DNA of 47,653 nt from contig JADGCO010000009.1 in assembly GCA_015228935.1 (NCBI GenBank), positions 27,620 through 75,272 of the forward strand. The letters are read 5' to 3'. The stretch is from Magnetococcales bacterium (GTDB lineage: Bacteria; Pseudomonadota; Magnetococcia; Magnetococcales; DC0425bin3). The position numbers were made by a program, and so were the translations under genes. The notes beneath the pieces are model-generated. The model saw only the letters and a program-made list of their open reading frames with translations. It had not been told where the DNA came from and did not search any database. Position 1 is the stretch's first letter, and every line of letters begins with the position of its first letter. Shown here piece by piece: positions 5,620-20,843 of this stretch.

Positions 5620-6822
5620 ATGAAACGTCGTGATTTTATCAAGTCTTCCGTGGCCATGGCGACCGTGGCTACGGTGGCAGGGCATATCACTCCATCCAAT
5701 GCCGAGACCGAGCAGAAAGCCGGGGTGAAAAATTATCGTCCCCTGGGCAACACCGGCATGAAAATCAGTGATATTTCCTTCGGTGCCGGGAAAGTGCCTT
5801 CGGCGTCACTGATCCTGCGGGCCGTCGAGCGCGGCATGAACTATTTTGACACGGCCCCCGACTACGGAACCAGCGAAGCCCTGATCGGTGAAGCCCTGCC
5901 GCGTCTGCCGGACCGGGGGAAAATTTACATCGCTTCCAAATTCTGCCAGCCGAAACCCTATCCCGGACATCTCCCCACGGGCAGTACCCAACAGGAATAT
6001 ATGGCGGCAGTCGAAGGCAGTCTGAAAAGATTGCATACCGACTATCTGGATGTGGTATTTGTGCATGGTATTGGCGAAAATCCGGATTTTGACAAGGAAC
6101 GGCAGCGGCTGTTTGACGAAAACATGCTGAAGGCTTTCGAGCGGCTGAAACAGGATGGCAAGGTACGTTTTCTGGCCGTCTCTTCCCATGGCCCCCACAA
6201 TATGGAACGGCTCCTCATGGAAGCGGTCAACTCCGGACACTTCCAGGTGATCATGCCGGCCTTCAATTTCATGAAATTTCCCAAGGTTCCGGAAGTGATC
6301 CAGGCCGCCAGCAAGAAGGGGGTGGGCGTGGTGGCCATGAAAACCCTCGCCGGTGCCAAGGAGAGCGGCGTCGATTTGAGCGGGGTCAGCGAACATGCGG
6401 CGTTCAAATGGGTTCTCAAACACCCCGAGGTGGCGGGTCTGGTGGTCACGATTGCCAATACCGGCCATCTGGATCTCTATCTGCCGGCTTCGGGGCAGGC
6501 TTTTACGGCCCAGGATCAAAGGCTCCTCGACCAGTATGCCGCCCTCCATGGCCAGGATTACTGCCGCACGGGTTGTGGCGATTGCGAGGCAGGGTGTCCG
6601 GAAAAGGTGCCCATTGCCTCCATCCTGCGTTACCAGATGTATTTTGAAGCGTACCAACAGGAAAAACAGGCCATGCAATCCTATGCCGCTCTGGAAAAAA
6701 ATGCGGCTGCCTGTCGAGGTTGTGACGGCGCGGCCTGCAATCAACAGTGTGCCTATGGCCTGCCCGTGGCCGCCAAACTCCAGGCCGCCCATCGGCAACT
6801 CTCTTTTGCCCCGGTTACCTGA
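5620..6822 (+). CDS. Tat-exported aldo/keto reductase with C-terminal Fe-S cysteine motifs
   Basis: 400 aa. The start MKRRDFIKSSVAMATVATVA is a twin-arginine signal, with likely cleavage after SNA near residue 28. The aldo/keto reductase barrel follows (YRPLGNTGMKISDISFG). The catalytic tetrad is visible as D77 and Y82 (YFDTAPDYG), K107 (IASKF) and H149 (VFVHG). The C-terminus holds two cysteine sets, YCRTGCGDCEAGCP and CRGCDGAACNQQC, suited to ferredoxin-type clusters. AKRs with such tails occur in anaerobic electron-transfer contexts. A Tat signal implies a folded, cofactor-loaded export. RBS AAGGAA lies 6-7 bases before the ATG. It begins a co-directional set with the next three genes, and the substrate is unknown. 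Confidence 0.88.
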   Translation: MKRRDFIKSSVAMATVATVAGHITPSNAETEQKAGVKNYRPLGNTGMKISDISFGAGKVPSASLILRAVERGMNYFDTAPDYGTSEALIGEALPRLPDRGKIYIASKFCQPKPYPGHLPTGSTQQEYMAAVEGSLKRLHTDYLDVVFVHGIGENPDFDKERQRLFDENMLKAFERLKQDGKVRFLAVSSHGPHNMERLLMEAVNSGHFQVIMPAFNFMKFPKVPEVIQAASKKGVGVVAMKTLAGAKESGVDLSGVSEHAAFKWVLKHPEVAGLVVTIANTGHLDLYLPASGQAFTAQDQRLLDQYAALHGQDYCRTGCGDCEAGCPEKVPIASILRYQMYFEAYQQEKQAMQSYAALEKNAAACRGCDGAACNQQCAYGLPVAAKLQAAHRQLSFAPVT

Positions 6823-6927
6823 GTCGCTTGTGAAAAAGTTCAGGAGTTCTCATCGAAACGTGGCGTGTCATGGGACACCATTTCCTTGCAAGGCTGATGT
6901 TGATCGAATGACTCCCTGGCCCATGGC

Positions 6928-7923
6928 ATGGTGATGGCTTCTCCGGCACCTCCCTGGCCCGTTCGGGTCCTGCTGTTGTTATTGCCCCCCCTGGTGGCGC
7001 TGGCCGTCTGGATGGATGGCCAGCGCTACGATCCGGGCTTGCTGGATTTTCAAAAAGGCGGCAACCCGGGTTCTGAATTGGCCAAAATGTTTCCGGATAC
7101 ACTGGGGTTGCTCAAAAAAATGGGCACCATCCGGGAGTATACCGAGGCCAATCTCTATGAATATATCAATGGTCACGCCGATTTTTTCATCGGGGCGGGT
7201 TTTCGCCGGCTGACAGTGGTGGAGTATGGGCCTCCCGGGGCACGTCAACCCACCCTGGTGGCGGATGTGTATGACATGGGCAAACCCATGCAGGCTTTTG
7301 GGGTTTTCACGGATCAAAAAGGCTCCCAGGCCGAAGCCGTGAATGTCGGCGACATGGCTTTTGTTTCTGACCGGACCCTCGGGTTCATCAAGGACATCTA
7401 CTATGTGCGCTTGGCAGCGTTTGCCGCCGATACACCCCTGCTGGAAGCGGCACGCCTGCTGGCCGGCAAGATTCAATCCCGGGCTGGTGCGACTTCCGGT
7501 TTCACTTTTGCCTTCCCTGATCTCGGCACGACCGGCGAAACCCGGTTCATCAAGGAAAACTATCGCGGCATGGCCTTCTTGAACAATGTCGTGGAACGGA
7601 TTTTCACCGGGGAAAAGGGGGAAGTCCGTACCGCCTTTTTGGTCAATGGCACCCCCGCAACCACCCAGGACCTGGAAAAATCCATGTTGGCGTTTCTCCA
7701 GGGTGAAGGAATCAAATATCAGACCAGCGCAACCCAGGGTCAGGCCAAAATCTACCGGGTCACCGACCCCTACGAGGGGGATTGGTTTTTTGCTGTTGGC
7801 CAAGACCGGTTGCTGGGTGTGTTCGGCCCCTGCCAGCCGGAACACCTGCAACGCATGGGAGAGGCCGCCCAACCACCTGACGTGACCAGGAAAAGTCCAT
7901 CCAATGTGCAGGATCTGCCATGA
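6928..7923 (+). CDS. DUF6599-like exported or membrane-anchored protein
   Basis: 331 aa. An N-terminal hydrophobic segment (about residues 10-28, VRVLLLLLPPLVALAV) looks like an uncleaved anchor or signal. The soluble part includes YTEANLYEYINGHADFF, typical of the DUF6599 family found next to Fe-S and DUF362 genes. No catalytic motif is evident. The start may be the GTG-adjacent ATG at 6928 or the ATG at 6934; neither has a strong ribosome-binding site. The stop codon TGA sits in an ATGA with the downstream mini-ORF, so translation into the next gene is probably coupled. The family name is from memory of sequence style and the function is unknown. Confidence 0.75.
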   Translation: MVMASPAPPWPVRVLLLLLPPLVALAVWMDGQRYDPGLLDFQKGGNPGSELAKMFPDTLGLLKKMGTIREYTEANLYEYINGHADFFIGAGFRRLTVVEYGPPGARQPTLVADVYDMGKPMQAFGVFTDQKGSQAEAVNVGDMAFVSDRTLGFIKDIYYVRLAAFAADTPLLEAARLLAGKIQSRAGATSGFTFAFPDLGTTGETRFIKENYRGMAFLNNVVERIFTGEKGEVRTAFLVNGTPATTQDLEKSMLAFLQGEGIKYQTSATQGQAKIYRVTDPYEGDWFFAVGQDRLLGVFGPCQPEHLQRMGEAAQPPDVTRKSPSNVQDLP

Positions 7924-8010
7924 AACCTGATGCCAAAAAATCAGTAAAGCAGTCCGGTGTGCAGGATCCGCCATGAAACCTGATGCCAAAAAATCAGTAA
8001 AGCAGTCTGG
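7905..8010 (+). repeat. 53-bp tandem duplication at a gene junction
   Basis: Units 7905-7957 and 7958-8010 differ at two positions only. Each carries the end of one frame and an ATGA junction, so the original start region of the DUF362 gene now exists twice. Because 53 is not a multiple of three, the two starts lie in different frames. Confidence 0.95.
7920..7976 (+). CDS. 18-codon mini-ORF created by the tandem duplication
   Basis: ATG at 7920 overlaps the stop of the DUF6599-like gene (ATGA). The frame encodes MKPDAKKSVKQSGVQDPP and stops at 7974-7976, in an ATGA that contains the start of the DUF362 gene at 7973. The first 13 residues equal those of the DUF362 protein, because this is the duplicated copy of its start. 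It may simply carry ribosomes across the junction. A functional peptide is unlikely, but translation is plausible. Confidence 0.5.
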   Translation: MKPDAKKSVKQSGVQDPP

Positions 8011-8995
8011 TTTCAAACGGGCCCAACCGGTCCTGAGCCGGCGGGAGTTTGTGCGGGATGTGGCCGTGACAACGGGGATTGCGGCTGGCCTGGGAGCGGG
8101 GGGGTGGTTGGCCTACAGCACCGAACCGATCCGCCGCCAGCCGGAGGTGATTCATAAATTGCGGGATTTTCGGATTCCGGCATCCGACCTGTTTCCGGTC
8201 ATGGCCGTGGTACGGGGCGAACAGGTGGAACGCATGACCCGGGAGGCCATAACCCGGCTCGGTGGTATCGACCGGTTCATCAAACGGGGTGACAAGGTCC
8301 TCCTCAAGCCGAACGTCGGATGGGATCGGCAGCCGGAACAGGCCGCCAACACCGGCCCGGAGCTGGTCGCGGCCATGGTGCGTCTTTGTCGGGAGGCCGG
8401 GGCCAAAGCCGTCTGGGTCACCGATCACTCTCTCAATGATCCCTATCGCTGCTTTTTCCGTTCCGGGATTGAAGACGCGATCCGCAAGGAGGGGGGGGAG
8501 ATGCGTCTGCCGCGCCAGGAGGACTTTGTGCGGACCGACATGGGGGGGAGCGTGCTGAAAATCTGGCCGGTGTCGCGTTTTTTTTTGGAAGCCGACAAGG
8601 TCATCAATCTGCCCATCGTCAAACATCACTCTTTATGCGGCTGTACCCTGGCCATGAAAAACTGGTATGGGGTGATCGGTGGCACGCGCAACCGTTTGCA
8701 TCAGGATATTCATGCCTCCATCGTCGATCTGGCGGCGGCGGTGCGGCCAACCTTGACCGTCATGGATGCCACGCGCGTCTTGAAACGCAATGGTCCTACC
8801 GGTGGGAGCGTGGCCGATGTTGGCCGGGAAAACACCCTGATTGCCGGTCTGGATGAGGTGGCCATGGATGCTTTCAGTCTGCAATTTCTGGATCTGCAAC
8901 CGGACAAGGTGCCTTTTCTGGCCATGGGAGAGGCGCGGGGTCTCGGGCGTGTCAACTGGCAAACGCTTAACGTCTCCCAGACCCAGATCGGATGA
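7973..8995 (+). CDS. Tat-exported DUF362 protein
   Basis: 340 aa. A long n-region is followed by twin arginine at about 23-24 (LSRREFVRDVAVTTG) and a hydrophobic stretch, so it is a Tat substrate. The DUF362 body contains GDKVLLKPNVGWDR, VWVTDHSL, NLPIVKHHSLCGCTLAMKNW and TLTVMDATRVLKRNGPTGG. These are the family's conserved segments, including the Cys pair in LCGC. DUF362 proteins are often fused or adjacent to ferredoxin domains, and their reaction is not established. Here the partner is the polyferredoxin starting 6 bases downstream. The start is in the second unit of a 53-bp duplication and overlaps a mini-ORF stop. Confidence 0.9.
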   Translation: MKPDAKKSVKQSGFKRAQPVLSRREFVRDVAVTTGIAAGLGAGGWLAYSTEPIRRQPEVIHKLRDFRIPASDLFPVMAVVRGEQVERMTREAITRLGGIDRFIKRGDKVLLKPNVGWDRQPEQAANTGPELVAAMVRLCREAGAKAVWVTDHSLNDPYRCFFRSGIEDAIRKEGGEMRLPRQEDFVRTDMGGSVLKIWPVSRFFLEADKVINLPIVKHHSLCGCTLAMKNWYGVIGGTRNRLHQDIHASIVDLAAAVRPTLTVMDATRVLKRNGPTGGSVADVGRENTLIAGLDEVAMDAFSLQFLDLQPDKVPFLAMGEARGLGRVNWQTLNVSQTQIG

Positions 8996-9001
8996 CCCGC
9001 C

Positions 9002-10522
9002 ATGCAACTGCCCAATCTGCGAGCCTTGCGTCGTTACCATGCGGTTTTTTTTCTCGGCCTGTTTCTGTTTTTTCTGGTGGTGAACGATTTTCGCCACATG
9101 CGTGGCTATGAAACCTCCCTTTTTCTGGAGCTGGATCCCCTGACCGCCTTGGGCGGCTTTTTGACGAGTCATACCCTCTACAAAGGTCTGGCCTGGTCGC
9201 TGGTCATCCTGCTGCCAACCCTTTTTTTTGGACGTTTTTTTTGTTCCTGGGTCTGTCCGTTGGGGATACTCAACCAGGGCATCAGCCATTTTTTCAACCA
9301 TCGCCGCCCGGTGGATGCCTACAAACTCAATGCGTATCGACCCATTTTCCGGGTAAAATATTATATATTGACCGCCCTGCTGATTCTGGCAGGCATGGGG
9401 GCACTCCAGACCGGTCTTCTCGATCCCATTGCCTTGTTGGAACGCTCCATGATTGTGGCGATCCTGCCGGCCATGCATGGCAAGGCGTGGGATTTTTATC
9501 AACATCAGCCTTATTTTCATGGCGGTATTTTAATCACGCTGCTCGTGTTGGCCATATTGTTGGCCAACCGGTTTTTGACCCGCTTCTGGTGTCGGGTATT
9601 GTGTCCGCTGGGGGCGTTGCTGGGGGTGTTTTCCCTGCGGGCACCGTTTCGCATCCGGCGCGACGTGGACCGTTGTTCGGCCTGCTCCCGCTGCCTGCAA
9701 TTCTGCCAGGGAGGATGTGACCCGCATGCCGAGTTGCGGGTCAGCGAATGCCACCTTTGTATGAATTGTATTGAGGCCTGCCCGGAAGATGCCCTGCATT
9801 TTGGTCTGGCCCAGCCGCGCAGTTCGGTCCAGCAACCCCTGGATCTGGGACGCCGCCGTCTGGTGGAGACCGGCGTCACCGCCCTGGCGTTGTATCCCAT
9901 GCTCCGCACTTCCCGTTCGGCCTATTCCAATCCGGCCCCGGACGTCATCCGTCCCCCCGGATCCCTGCCGGAAGCGGATTTTCTGGCCCGCTGCATCAAA
10001 TGCGCCGCCTGCATGCGGGTCTGCCCGACCAATGTTCTGCAACCCGCTCTCCTGGAGTCCGGCCTGGAGGGGCTATGGACCCCGATCCTCATCAATACTC
10101 AGGGGTATTGTGAACATCACTGCGTCCTTTGTGGCCAGGTTTGCCCGACCGCCGCGATTCGCCCCGTGCCCATCGCCGAAAAAATCGGCAACAAACCCTA
10201 CACCCATCCAATCAAGCTGGGCACCGCCTTTTTTGATCGGGGTCGTTGTCTCCCTTGGGCCATGCATATTCCCTGTATTGTCTGCGAGGAAATGTGTCCC
10301 ACCTCGCCCAAGGCCATCTGGTTTCAAAGCGTCACCATTCCTGGCCGCGATGGAAAGCCGGTTGATTTGAAACAACCCTTTGTCGAGCCGGCCCGTTGCA
10401 TCGGTTGTGGCATTTGCGAAAACAAATGCCCGGTTGTCGATCAGGCCGCCATTCGCGTCACCTCCGTCGGCGAAACCCGCTCCCAACGCAATCGTATGAT
10501 CTTGAAAGGGGATATCTCTTAG
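9002..10522 (+). CDS. NapH/YccM-type membrane polyferredoxin
   Basis: 506 aa. About four to five membrane helices lie in the first 200 residues, with the FFCSWVCPLGILNQ and FWCRVLCPLGALLGV motifs characteristic of NapH/CcoG/NosR-type proteins. The hydrophilic remainder carries many Cys groups: CSACSRCLQFCQGGC, CHLCMNCIEACP, CIKCAACMRVCP, CVLCGQVCP, CIVCEEMCP and CIGCGICENKCP. That suggests five or six 4Fe-4S clusters. It should pass electrons between the quinone pool and soluble acceptors, here plausibly the two Tat-exported partners upstream. It starts 6 bases after the DUF362 stop and is the last gene of the set. Confidence 0.9.
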   Translation: MQLPNLRALRRYHAVFFLGLFLFFLVVNDFRHMRGYETSLFLELDPLTALGGFLTSHTLYKGLAWSLVILLPTLFFGRFFCSWVCPLGILNQGISHFFNHRRPVDAYKLNAYRPIFRVKYYILTALLILAGMGALQTGLLDPIALLERSMIVAILPAMHGKAWDFYQHQPYFHGGILITLLVLAILLANRFLTRFWCRVLCPLGALLGVFSLRAPFRIRRDVDRCSACSRCLQFCQGGCDPHAELRVSECHLCMNCIEACPEDALHFGLAQPRSSVQQPLDLGRRRLVETGVTALALYPMLRTSRSAYSNPAPDVIRPPGSLPEADFLARCIKCAACMRVCPTNVLQPALLESGLEGLWTPILINTQGYCEHHCVLCGQVCPTAAIRPVPIAEKIGNKPYTHPIKLGTAFFDRGRCLPWAMHIPCIVCEEMCPTSPKAIWFQSVTIPGRDGKPVDLKQPFVEPARCIGCGICENKCPVVDQAAIRVTSVGETRSQRNRMILKGDIS

Positions 10523-17303: not shown

Positions 17304-17518
17304 GGCTGCAACTGCCCCTCTGTCACAATAAAAAAGGTTTGAATCCGAAACAAAAATAGGGTACCCCATACAGGTGCCTGCGGGATATGTCCGTTACAGG
17401 CGATATGGGAATTCTCTGATTGTTTTGCAAGGGTTCCCAGGAAAAAAATGTGGCGTCCCGTTGCCGGACCCTGGTTGGCAAATCCTGTTGCGCGTGTTCA
17501 TCGGAAAGGAAAATCAGC

Positions 17519-17932
17519 ATGAAAGTGATTCGTTCCATCCCCATGTTTGCCTATTTATTGATTTTTTATAATGTTTTTCTTTTTCAGGGCGTGGCGGATG
17601 CGCATCTGAAAATATTGGCGCAGACCATTCTTGTCATTCCGCTCCAAAAGGCGACGGTCACGGCCACTCTGGGTGATGTGTTGATCATGGTGGGTGTGGG
17701 TGCCCTGTATGTCGAGTTGTTCAAGGCCACGCGCTCTTCGGATGCTTCCATTCTGGATCACATGTTGTCCATGATGGTTTTTGTCGTTTTCCTGGTGGAA
17801 TTTCTCCTGGTGGCTGCTGCCGGAACGGTGACCTTCCTGACCTTGACGCTCATGTCGTTTCTGGACGTGGTGGCAGGTTTCACCGTGACGATTTCCGCTT
17901 CCCGGCGCGATTTTTCCAGTTCCAGGAATTGA
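17519..17932 (+). CDS. small integral membrane protein (137 aa), unknown function
   Basis: Starts MKVIRSIPMFAYLLIFYNVF after a good ribosome-binding site (GGAAAGGA, 17502-17509). About four hydrophobic segments are visible: near 9-26, 50-68, 82-104 and 103-125. This is a compact four-helix membrane protein resembling conserved hypotheticals with a PLQKATVTATLGD loop after the first helix. No motif suggests a reaction. Its last codons, including the stop, lie inside the first unit of a 26-bp tandem repeat. Confidence 0.7.
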   Translation: MKVIRSIPMFAYLLIFYNVFLFQGVADAHLKILAQTILVIPLQKATVTATLGDVLIMVGVGALYVELFKATRSSDASILDHMLSMMVFVVFLVEFLLVAAAGTVTFLTLTLMSFLDVVAGFTVTISASRRDFSSSRN

Positions 17933-17994
17933 ACGTTTTCGGCAGTTCCAGGAATTGAACGTTTTCGGCAGTTCCAGGAATTGAACGTTTTCGG
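17917..17994 (+). repeat. three perfect 26-bp tandem repeats
   Basis: Units at 17917-17942, 17943-17968 and 17969-17994 are identical. The stop codon of the membrane-protein gene (17930-17932) falls inside the first. The array ends about 65 bases from the end of the TIR-SLOG operon. Confidence 0.97.
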
Positions 17995-18584: not shown

Positions 18585-19598
18585 TTATTGTCCTGTCGGG
18601 GGTGTGTTTGTTGAGGGTGTGGCGCATTGTTGCAAGCCTTTGATGACCAGTTGGATCATCTCCGCCAGATAGGGGGTTGCAAACAATCGTTCATTTTCCT
18701 CTTTAAGCAGACCATTGTTCAGACCGGCGGGACCTTTCTCTTTCAGAGTATGCAAAACTTTTTGATAATCAAAAACTTCTGCCAGGGGATCTCCCTTTTC
18801 CCGTTCGGTGCGATAGGTTGCCAGAAGTTCTTGCAGAGTCGAAGTTGCCGGTGGCTTTTGCAGGGGTGAAGTGGATGCGGATGTCTGCTTTGCTTGATGG
18901 GCCTTGTTGGCCTGTTCCACTTGATAGATTTCGCTGAACTCCTCGGGTGTTTCGCCCAGCAATGCCTGGGCAATGCGGGCGGTGCAGCCGCCAAAGCCAC
19001 CCAATACAAACAGGGGAATGCCGGCCTGAAGTGCCAGCCAGGCCTCTTCCAGAATTCCCGGACAACGTCCCGAGTAGCCGGTCAATTTTCCTCCCAGCAG
19101 GATACGGGCCTGACAGGTGCGATGCATTTCCTGGCGCATGGCAGTGAGGCTGATGGATCGTAAATAGCGACCCAGGGCGTCATTCGGTGGGCGTATTTCA
19201 GGATTGAGAGAGGGATGCCGCAGTGAAGCCGGCGGTTGCAGGCAATGAAATATGGCCATATTTTCCAAAATTTTTCGATGATCAGGAGAAAAATCCAGAT
19301 GGATGGGCCAGGCCAGATAGTTGTGGATGCGCCTGACATCATCGTGATCATCTTTTCTCCGATAGGTGGCCACCAGTTGGAACAACTGTTCCGTAAATCC
19401 ACCAGGACGCAAATCACCGCCATAAGCCAAATCTGCTCCTTGAGCCAGGAGATATCGGGCCATTTCCTGCATGGCCAGTTCCAGATGAATGGGCTGCAAG
19501 CCCGAGAGTGCCAGGTCCGGACTCTCGGAGATGGAAATGGCAATGGTCCAGCCAGAGAGTGGGTTGGGACGGTGCGTGGGAGATGGATGGGCGTTCAT
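18585..19598 (-). CDS. SLOG-superfamily protein (TIR-associated, STALD/LOG-like)
   Basis: 337 aa. The Rossmann-like glycine motifs are clear: YGGDLRPGGFT (59-69), RILLGGKLTGYSGRCPG (165-181) followed by EEAWLALQAGIPLFVLGGFGG (to about 204). This is the arrangement of SLOG domains (LOG, DprA and STALD relatives), which bind nucleotides or nucleotide-derived signals such as those made by TIR enzymes. A low-complexity linker (about 235-260) is followed by a helical tail. The start overlaps the TIR stop as ATGA. In Thoeris the SLOG domain is a sensor in ThsA; here it is a separate protein with no obvious Sir2 domain. A sensor role is an inference from the pairing. Confidence 0.8.
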   Translation of the reverse strand: MNAHPSPTHRPNPLSGWTIAISISESPDLALSGLQPIHLELAMQEMARYLLAQGADLAYGGDLRPGGFTEQLFQLVATYRRKDDHDDVRRIHNYLAWPIHLDFSPDHRKILENMAIFHCLQPPASLRHPSLNPEIRPPNDALGRYLRSISLTAMRQEMHRTCQARILLGGKLTGYSGRCPGILEEAWLALQAGIPLFVLGGFGGCTARIAQALLGETPEEFSEIYQVEQANKAHQAKQTSASTSPLQKPPATSTLQELLATYRTEREKGDPLAEVFDYQKVLHTLKEKGPAGLNNGLLKEENERLFATPYLAEMIQLVIKGLQQCATPSTNTPPTGQ

Positions 19599-20752
19599 GT
19601 TCTTCCTGCCAACTCATTGGGGGTGAGGAAAGCGACATGGGGACGCATCTTTTTTAGCAGAGCCAACTCATTGGAACCCAAAGGGGGATCGGGATAGAGG
19701 ATGGTTTGAAGGCTGGGGTTGTGAAGGCGTGCAACGGTCAGAAGGGTGACCAATTCCGGCGGGGTACTCAGCCACTGGCAGGGGGATGGCATCTTGTGCA
19801 GCTCCAGGAGATTTTCCATCAGCATGGACGCATGGGTCATGCGCAATGTTTCCGTAAGGATGGCTGCAACAGTGCGTTGGCAACTTTCCTTGATGTCATC
19901 TGCCTGCCAGCGAATGGATGGTGTATTTCCCAGATAGGGAAATTGCCGCTCTTCTTCCTGTTGCACGGCATTGACCACCAATACCGGTTTTTCCAGACAT
20001 TTGGCATCCAGAACTTCCTTTTGACACCAATCACGGGAGGCATAGGCATCGGTCTGGATGGCAATCAGGGCTGAATCATCAATGGCTCCTTCGATCTCTT
20101 CGGCGAAACTGTGGCCGGGAGCAATGTCTCGAGCATCGAAGAAAACGCCCATGGGAGTGAAGTGGCACAAGTGATTTTTAAGGGCCTGGGCGATGGTCAG
20201 GCCATCCTGTTTGGCATGACTGAGAAAGAGTTGCACTGGGGCATGGCTGCGTTTGTCACGGCGGTTTTGCAACAGCAGTCGGCAGAGTTCATGCATGATG
20301 CTCAGCCCCAGGTGCCGAGCCTGTTCCACGACGGCGATTTCATGCAGACGAATATAATGTATTGTATTCAACAGATTGGGGTTTATCTTAAACACCTGGG
20401 ACGAGAGGGTGACCGGTATCAGCAGGTGGGGAGATTCAGGAGGGGTACCTGTCGCCTTGGCCAGTGCCACGAGAAAGGCATTCCAATCCTGGTCGCGGGC
20501 CATATTGCTGTCTACCAGGACGATCACCACCCCATGGTGGACATGATCCAGAGAGAAGCGGGCGGGGCGTCCGTGGATGTCCAATGCAGGATCCTGCCAC
20601 GCAAAGCAGGGGATGTTGAGTCCTGCACGTGAAACGTTGGTAGGATTGCGCATCAGAATGTGCGTTAGATGATTCACCAAAGTGGGAGCAGAGAGGCACG
20701 CCGGGTGCCTCAAAATATGGACCGCCAGTTCCGGTTTGTAGATATTATGCAT
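19595..20752 (-). CDS. TIR-domain protein, probable NAD-consuming sensor/effector
   Basis: 385 aa from ATG 20752; GTG at 20761 is an alternative. The C-terminal half is a TIR domain from about residue 172: VQLFLSHAKQDG, GVFFDARDIAPGHSFAEEI and DSALIAIQTDAYASRDWCQK followed by EV. The catalytic Glu is E246 of the WCxxE motif, kept in NADase-type TIRs. The N-terminal ~165 residues, with VHHGVVIVLVDSNMARDQDW, may be a second, degenerate nucleotide-binding domain and carry no named motif. It heads the operon: TIR, SLOG, 173-aa protein, with overlaps of a few bases. Prokaryotic TIR enzymes make NAD-derived signals or deplete NAD during phage attack. Confidence 0.85.
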   Translation of the reverse strand: MHNIYKPELAVHILRHPACLSAPTLVNHLTHILMRNPTNVSRAGLNIPCFAWQDPALDIHGRPARFSLDHVHHGVVIVLVDSNMARDQDWNAFLVALAKATGTPPESPHLLIPVTLSSQVFKINPNLLNTIHYIRLHEIAVVEQARHLGLSIMHELCRLLLQNRRDKRSHAPVQLFLSHAKQDGLTIAQALKNHLCHFTPMGVFFDARDIAPGHSFAEEIEGAIDDSALIAIQTDAYASRDWCQKEVLDAKCLEKPVLVVNAVQQEEERQFPYLGNTPSIRWQADDIKESCQRTVAAILTETLRMTHASMLMENLLELHKMPSPCQWLSTPPELVTLLTVARLHNPSLQTILYPDPPLGSNELALLKKMRPHVAFLTPNELAGRT

Positions 20753-20753
20753 G

Positions 20754-20843
20754 CGGTACACCTGGGCAGAATATGAATTTCATGTCGCTCGATTCTGACG
20801 GTACACCTGGGCAGAATATGAATTTCATGTCGCTCGATTCTGA
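20754..20843 (+). repeat. two perfect 45-bp tandem repeats upstream of the TIR operon
   Basis: Units 20754-20798 and 20799-20843 are identical. The first abuts the TIR start codon, so the array forms the 5' leader of the operon and could carry promoter or operator elements in duplicate. Confidence 0.97.

Follow-up and report, generated by a model that had tools for sequence, protein, structure and literature searches.

A 53-bp tandem duplication over the ATGA junction of DUF6599 and DUF362 genes and its putative 18-codon chained ORF

In the window (the whole 47,653-nucleotide stretch of Magnetococcales DNA that was analysed), the junction between a DUF6599 gene and a DUF362 gene is present twice, and a short reading frame links the two copies. 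This raises the question of whether such a frame carries ribosomes from one gene to the next or was merely left behind by a duplication. The reading preferred here, at a probability of roughly 0.85, is a recent single slippage or microhomology event that copied 53 bp across an existing ATGA overlap, with an incidental mini-ORF and little or no effect on DUF362. From the sequence and its comparisons, we infer slippage as the cause, the near-neutrality of the change and the behaviour of the ribosomes.

The duplicated junction and its gene cluster

The duplication is a head-to-tail tandem pair on the plus strand (7905-7957 and 7958-8010), the units of which agree at 51 of 53 positions. The mismatches are T at 7916 against C at 7969, and C at 7955 against T at 8008. 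The pair has a TRF score of 200, the highest of the 12 TRF rows in the window, and the resemblance of the units is far above chance. Both units contain AGGA, six bases and then ATGA, at 7910-7913 and 7920-7923 in the first and at 7963-7966 and 7973-7976 in the second. At the first ATGA the DUF6599 stop codon (TGA, 7921-7923) overlaps the start of a putative 18-codon mini-ORF (7920-7976, plus strand), and at the second the mini-ORF's own TGA (7974-7976) overlaps the DUF362 start codon at 7973. The three reading frames all differ (start modulo 3 of 1, 0 and 2 for DUF6599, mini-ORF and DUF362), and the translation of the mini-ORF, MKPDAKKSVKQSGVQDPP, joins DUF362 residues 1-13 to a copied DUF6599 tail in which VQDLP has become VQDPP. 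The original prediction of a 53-bp duplication that copied an ATGA junction, with an 18-codon ORF whose stop overlaps the DUF362 start, is thus exact. An assembly artefact, in which the second copy is absent from the real genome, might be suspected in a 4.7-Mb draft of 197 contigs, but two mismatches separate the units, and an array of 106 bp lies within the span of ordinary reads, which makes this explanation very improbable.

The junction lies within a cluster that runs, on the plus strand, from an aldo/keto reductase with a C-terminal ferredoxin-like part (5620-6822, PF00248, E 5.4e-32) through DUF6599 (6928-7923, PF20244, E 2.2e-25) and a Tat-type DUF362 protein with a twin-arginine (SRREF) signal (7973-8995, PF04015, E 2e-51) to a polyferredoxin-type 4Fe-4S membrane protein (9002-10522, from the ORF list and Pfam). 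This order recurs in many relatives, and in many of them, too, the aldo/keto reductase is found 5' of DUF6599. The DUF362 start is well fixed, since ATG 7973 is the sole upstream ATG, GTG or TTG in that frame and no further start codon was seen by eye between it and the SRREF motif. An alternative upstream start was considered and ruled out, as ATG 7973 alone is open in that frame. A search for known structured RNAs over 6500-9500 gave no Rfam match.

Short tandem duplications that arise by replication slippage or microhomology are a known class. The 53-bp pair resembles them in being head-to-tail, in having two near-identical copies and in having almost no breakpoint homology (about one base, a T, in common), and many others occur in this genome. 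It differs in that it happens to span an operon junction.

Duplication length and the chained frame

When one unit is removed by script, a plain ATGA junction results and the DUF6599 and DUF362 proteins are identical to those of the two-copy sequence. Neither neighbouring protein is altered, as copy 1 contains the end of the upstream gene and copy 2 the start of the downstream one. Any tandem duplication that spans the junction spares both neighbours in this way, and both original proteins are kept whatever its length.

The original prediction also held that coupling had survived although 53 is not divisible by three. The chained double-ATGA geometry stands, but the "although" has to be turned around. 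In a simulation on the one-copy sequence, every tandem duplication of 20-150 bp that includes its ATGA was made (n = 10742), and a chained outcome was obtained in 3550 (33%). These came entirely from lengths of 2 modulo 3, where 3550 of 3586 duplications chain, with none among the remaining lengths; every simulated duplication of 53 bp (50/50) chains. Only lengths of 2 modulo 3 therefore permit chaining, which then results almost by itself, and the 18-codon frame ends exactly on the second ATGA because 53 is such a number. The rule at a 4-nt overlap is that duplications of 2 modulo 3 keep the chain, those of 0 modulo 3 can lengthen the downstream protein, and others break the chain. For a 1-nt overlap, which lies outside the simulation, the same rule can be derived, the frame shift being equal.

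This arithmetic invites readings in which copy number matters. One is a reversible switch resembling a contingency locus, in which DUF362 translation would be tuned as 53-bp units are gained or lost; recombination or slippage can act on tandem units so alike, and any further 53-bp unit would also chain. There are, however, two copies only, which already carry two substitutions, no counterpart exists in relatives and no copy-number variation was seen, so that such a switch is scarcely credible. A broader idea is that 2 modulo 3 duplications at ATGA junctions act as self-propagating coupling relays, whose copy number would be a heritable and reversible dimmer that leaves the proteins unchanged. 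Each added unit would then bring one more mini-ORF and one more restart step; this idea is highly speculative and we consider it very unlikely.

Translation through the junction

Under the preferred reading of a single recent duplication, a slippage or microhomology event would have copied the 53 bp over a pre-existing 4-nt overlap. Some ribosomes leaving DUF6599 would restart at the first ATG and make a useless 18-residue peptide, and these same ribosomes would restart again, a second -4 step leading to DUF362, with other ribosomes initiating directly at the copied AGGA and ATG. Each restart step would lose ribosomes, so that two steps would be no better than one by that route, and the net output of DUF362 is probably reduced modestly or not at all.

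The competing reading is one of functional chained coupling, in which ribosomes reach DUF362 from DUF6599 by way of a mini-ORF that is required for this and has been kept for a fixed stoichiometry. Restart is described as most efficient at spacings of -4 to +3, with a 3- to 10-fold drop by about +40, and ribosomes in phage fr as favouring the start nearest the stop (PMC12548453). Both restarts at the junction would have the optimal -4 spacing, and if the mini-ORF were absent a gap of +49 nt would be left, at which coupling is reported to be much weaker. Against this, the chain follows from the duplication length alone, and an AGGA supplied by the second copy lies 6 nt 5' of its ATG, which means that DUF362 need not rely on the mini-ORF. 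The need for a mini-ORF is further weakened by ribosome profiling in E. coli, from which re-initiation is argued not to be a major coupling mechanism in that species (PMC7538156). Coupling through the mini-ORF is plausible from this analysis and direct initiation at the copied AGGA appears equally possible, yet a mini-ORF that is required and maintained seems unlikely.

Sites were scored with an assumed anti-Shine-Dalgarno sequence, and the best copy 2 site (12-nt spacing) was set aside for the shared AGGA. The predicted fold of the two-copy RNA is somewhat more stable than that of shuffled sequences (z = -2.0; 3/200 shuffles at least as stable). Predicted openness of the DUF362 start is 0.46/0.40/0.30 with one copy versus 0.34/0.28/0.25 with two (flanks of 40/60/100), and on this modelling the duplication may have a real effect on DUF362 output.

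In that stop and start share an ATGA, the junction is like the translational coupling by termination-reinitiation for which PMC12548453 gives a best spacing of -4 to +3. It departs from the usual case in having two overlaps in series, through a duplication-made 18-codon frame that ribosomes may use. The duplication matters little biologically unless translation of the mini-ORF is shown; the junction would nevertheless lend itself to a comparison of a single restart with two in series.

Relatives and other tandem repeats

DUF362 protein matches were found in 42 of the 61 searched genomes, the own genome counted, and the named relatives with a match are mostly Magnetococcales, with some Gammaproteobacteria, Nitrospirae and others. 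A scan of the 61 other distinct orthologue stretches, including 51 in which DUF6599 is the immediate upstream neighbour, found no repeat of 53 bp or similar length; it reached 200 nt 5' of the DUF362 match, covered the long-spacer loci L006 and L018 partly and included one locus (L070) that starts inside the gene. TRF returned only short-period rows (6 to 18 bases) in those stretches. A DNA search of 61 genomes placed the duplicated stretch in the own genome only; the one other row was a 29-nt match (E 4.1e-4). The two substitutions in 53 bp suggest that the duplication is fairly recent, and, since they have accumulated, that it is not brand-new and has been tolerated for some time.

Junction geometry was compared after starts had been chosen by rule (ATG preferred, 5' of the RR motif), with 11 of 62 loci dropped. 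The 51 scored junctions, own included, comprise 5 at -4, 1 at -1, 32 other overlaps, 4 at 0-9, 4 at 10-50 and 5 above 50. Overlap of some kind is thus found in 38/51, in many geometries and with some starts probably misassigned, as in several of the large overlaps (for example L073 at -1255 and L011 at -173). Closeness of DUF6599 and DUF362 is common among relatives, and the exact ATGA is not conserved. In genus-mate G002, which has the closest DUF362 relative (83% identity), the stop is TAG and the start a GTG at +21, with no overlap, and this varied geometry also speaks against a required mini-ORF. In genus-mate G001 no DUF362 match was found in the genome (76% complete), though DUF6599 is kept; there DUF6599 ends in TGATG, and the short ORF after it is a different one, judged by eye to be possibly a nucleotidyltransferase.

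The repeat scan, the junction comparison and the search of 61 genomes together rule out a mini-ORF conserved in the relatives covered; neither peptide nor frame recurs, the duplication being absent from the 61 other orthologue stretches. There is no sign of selection for the mini-ORF in the relatives examined, all of which lack the duplication, and it is probably a by-product. Coupled short upstream ORFs (leader or uORF coupling) are a known class, and the mini-ORF differs from them in having no conserved peptide and no Rfam match and in occurring in a single one of the genomes examined.

The own genome has many short tandem duplications: its 447,653 sampled bases contain 36 merged arrays with a period of at least 20 and a match of at least 85%, of which 15 have two copies; G002 has 23 in 412,000. 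ATGA-type overlaps are likewise ordinary here, -4 overlaps accounting for 17/194 same-strand gene pairs in a census on crude ORFs. A scan for chained mini-ORFs over about 860 kb of the own genome and G002 (536 loose repeat groups) gave three matches, of which by inspection the window's alone stands. The match at L098 was rejected for a spurious upstream frame, and that at L101 because its downstream frame runs opposite to a longer ORF on the other strand. In open-licence PMC text, no paper was found with a junction duplication that makes chained ATGA mini-ORFs as its subject (by title and start of abstract).

Several other tandem repeats were seen. In the window, a perfect 45-bp tandem pair (20754-20843) crosses the 5' edge of a minus-strand ORF (19595-20761), and a perfect 26-bp triple (17917-17994) crosses the end of the ORF at 17420-17932; its units each have TTGA, 26 is 2 modulo 3 and tiny 9-codon frames chain, with no convincing downstream gene on the same strand. 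Also in the window, a diverged 35-bp tandem pair (2652-2722) lies just 5' of the likely ATG (2723) of a response-regulator gene, which makes the gene's long GTG start at 2612 doubtful. At L098 in the own genome, a 19-bp ATGA-bearing unit in about four copies (about 8190-8265) sits at another operon junction, between a radical-SAM-like ORF (6636-8228) and a phosphoesterase-like ORF (8244-9293; both named by eye), and its length is unable to chain. In G002, a 68-bp tandem pair (L101, 10290-10430) lies past a stop codon between convergent ORFs and contains a GC-rich, hairpin-like sequence.
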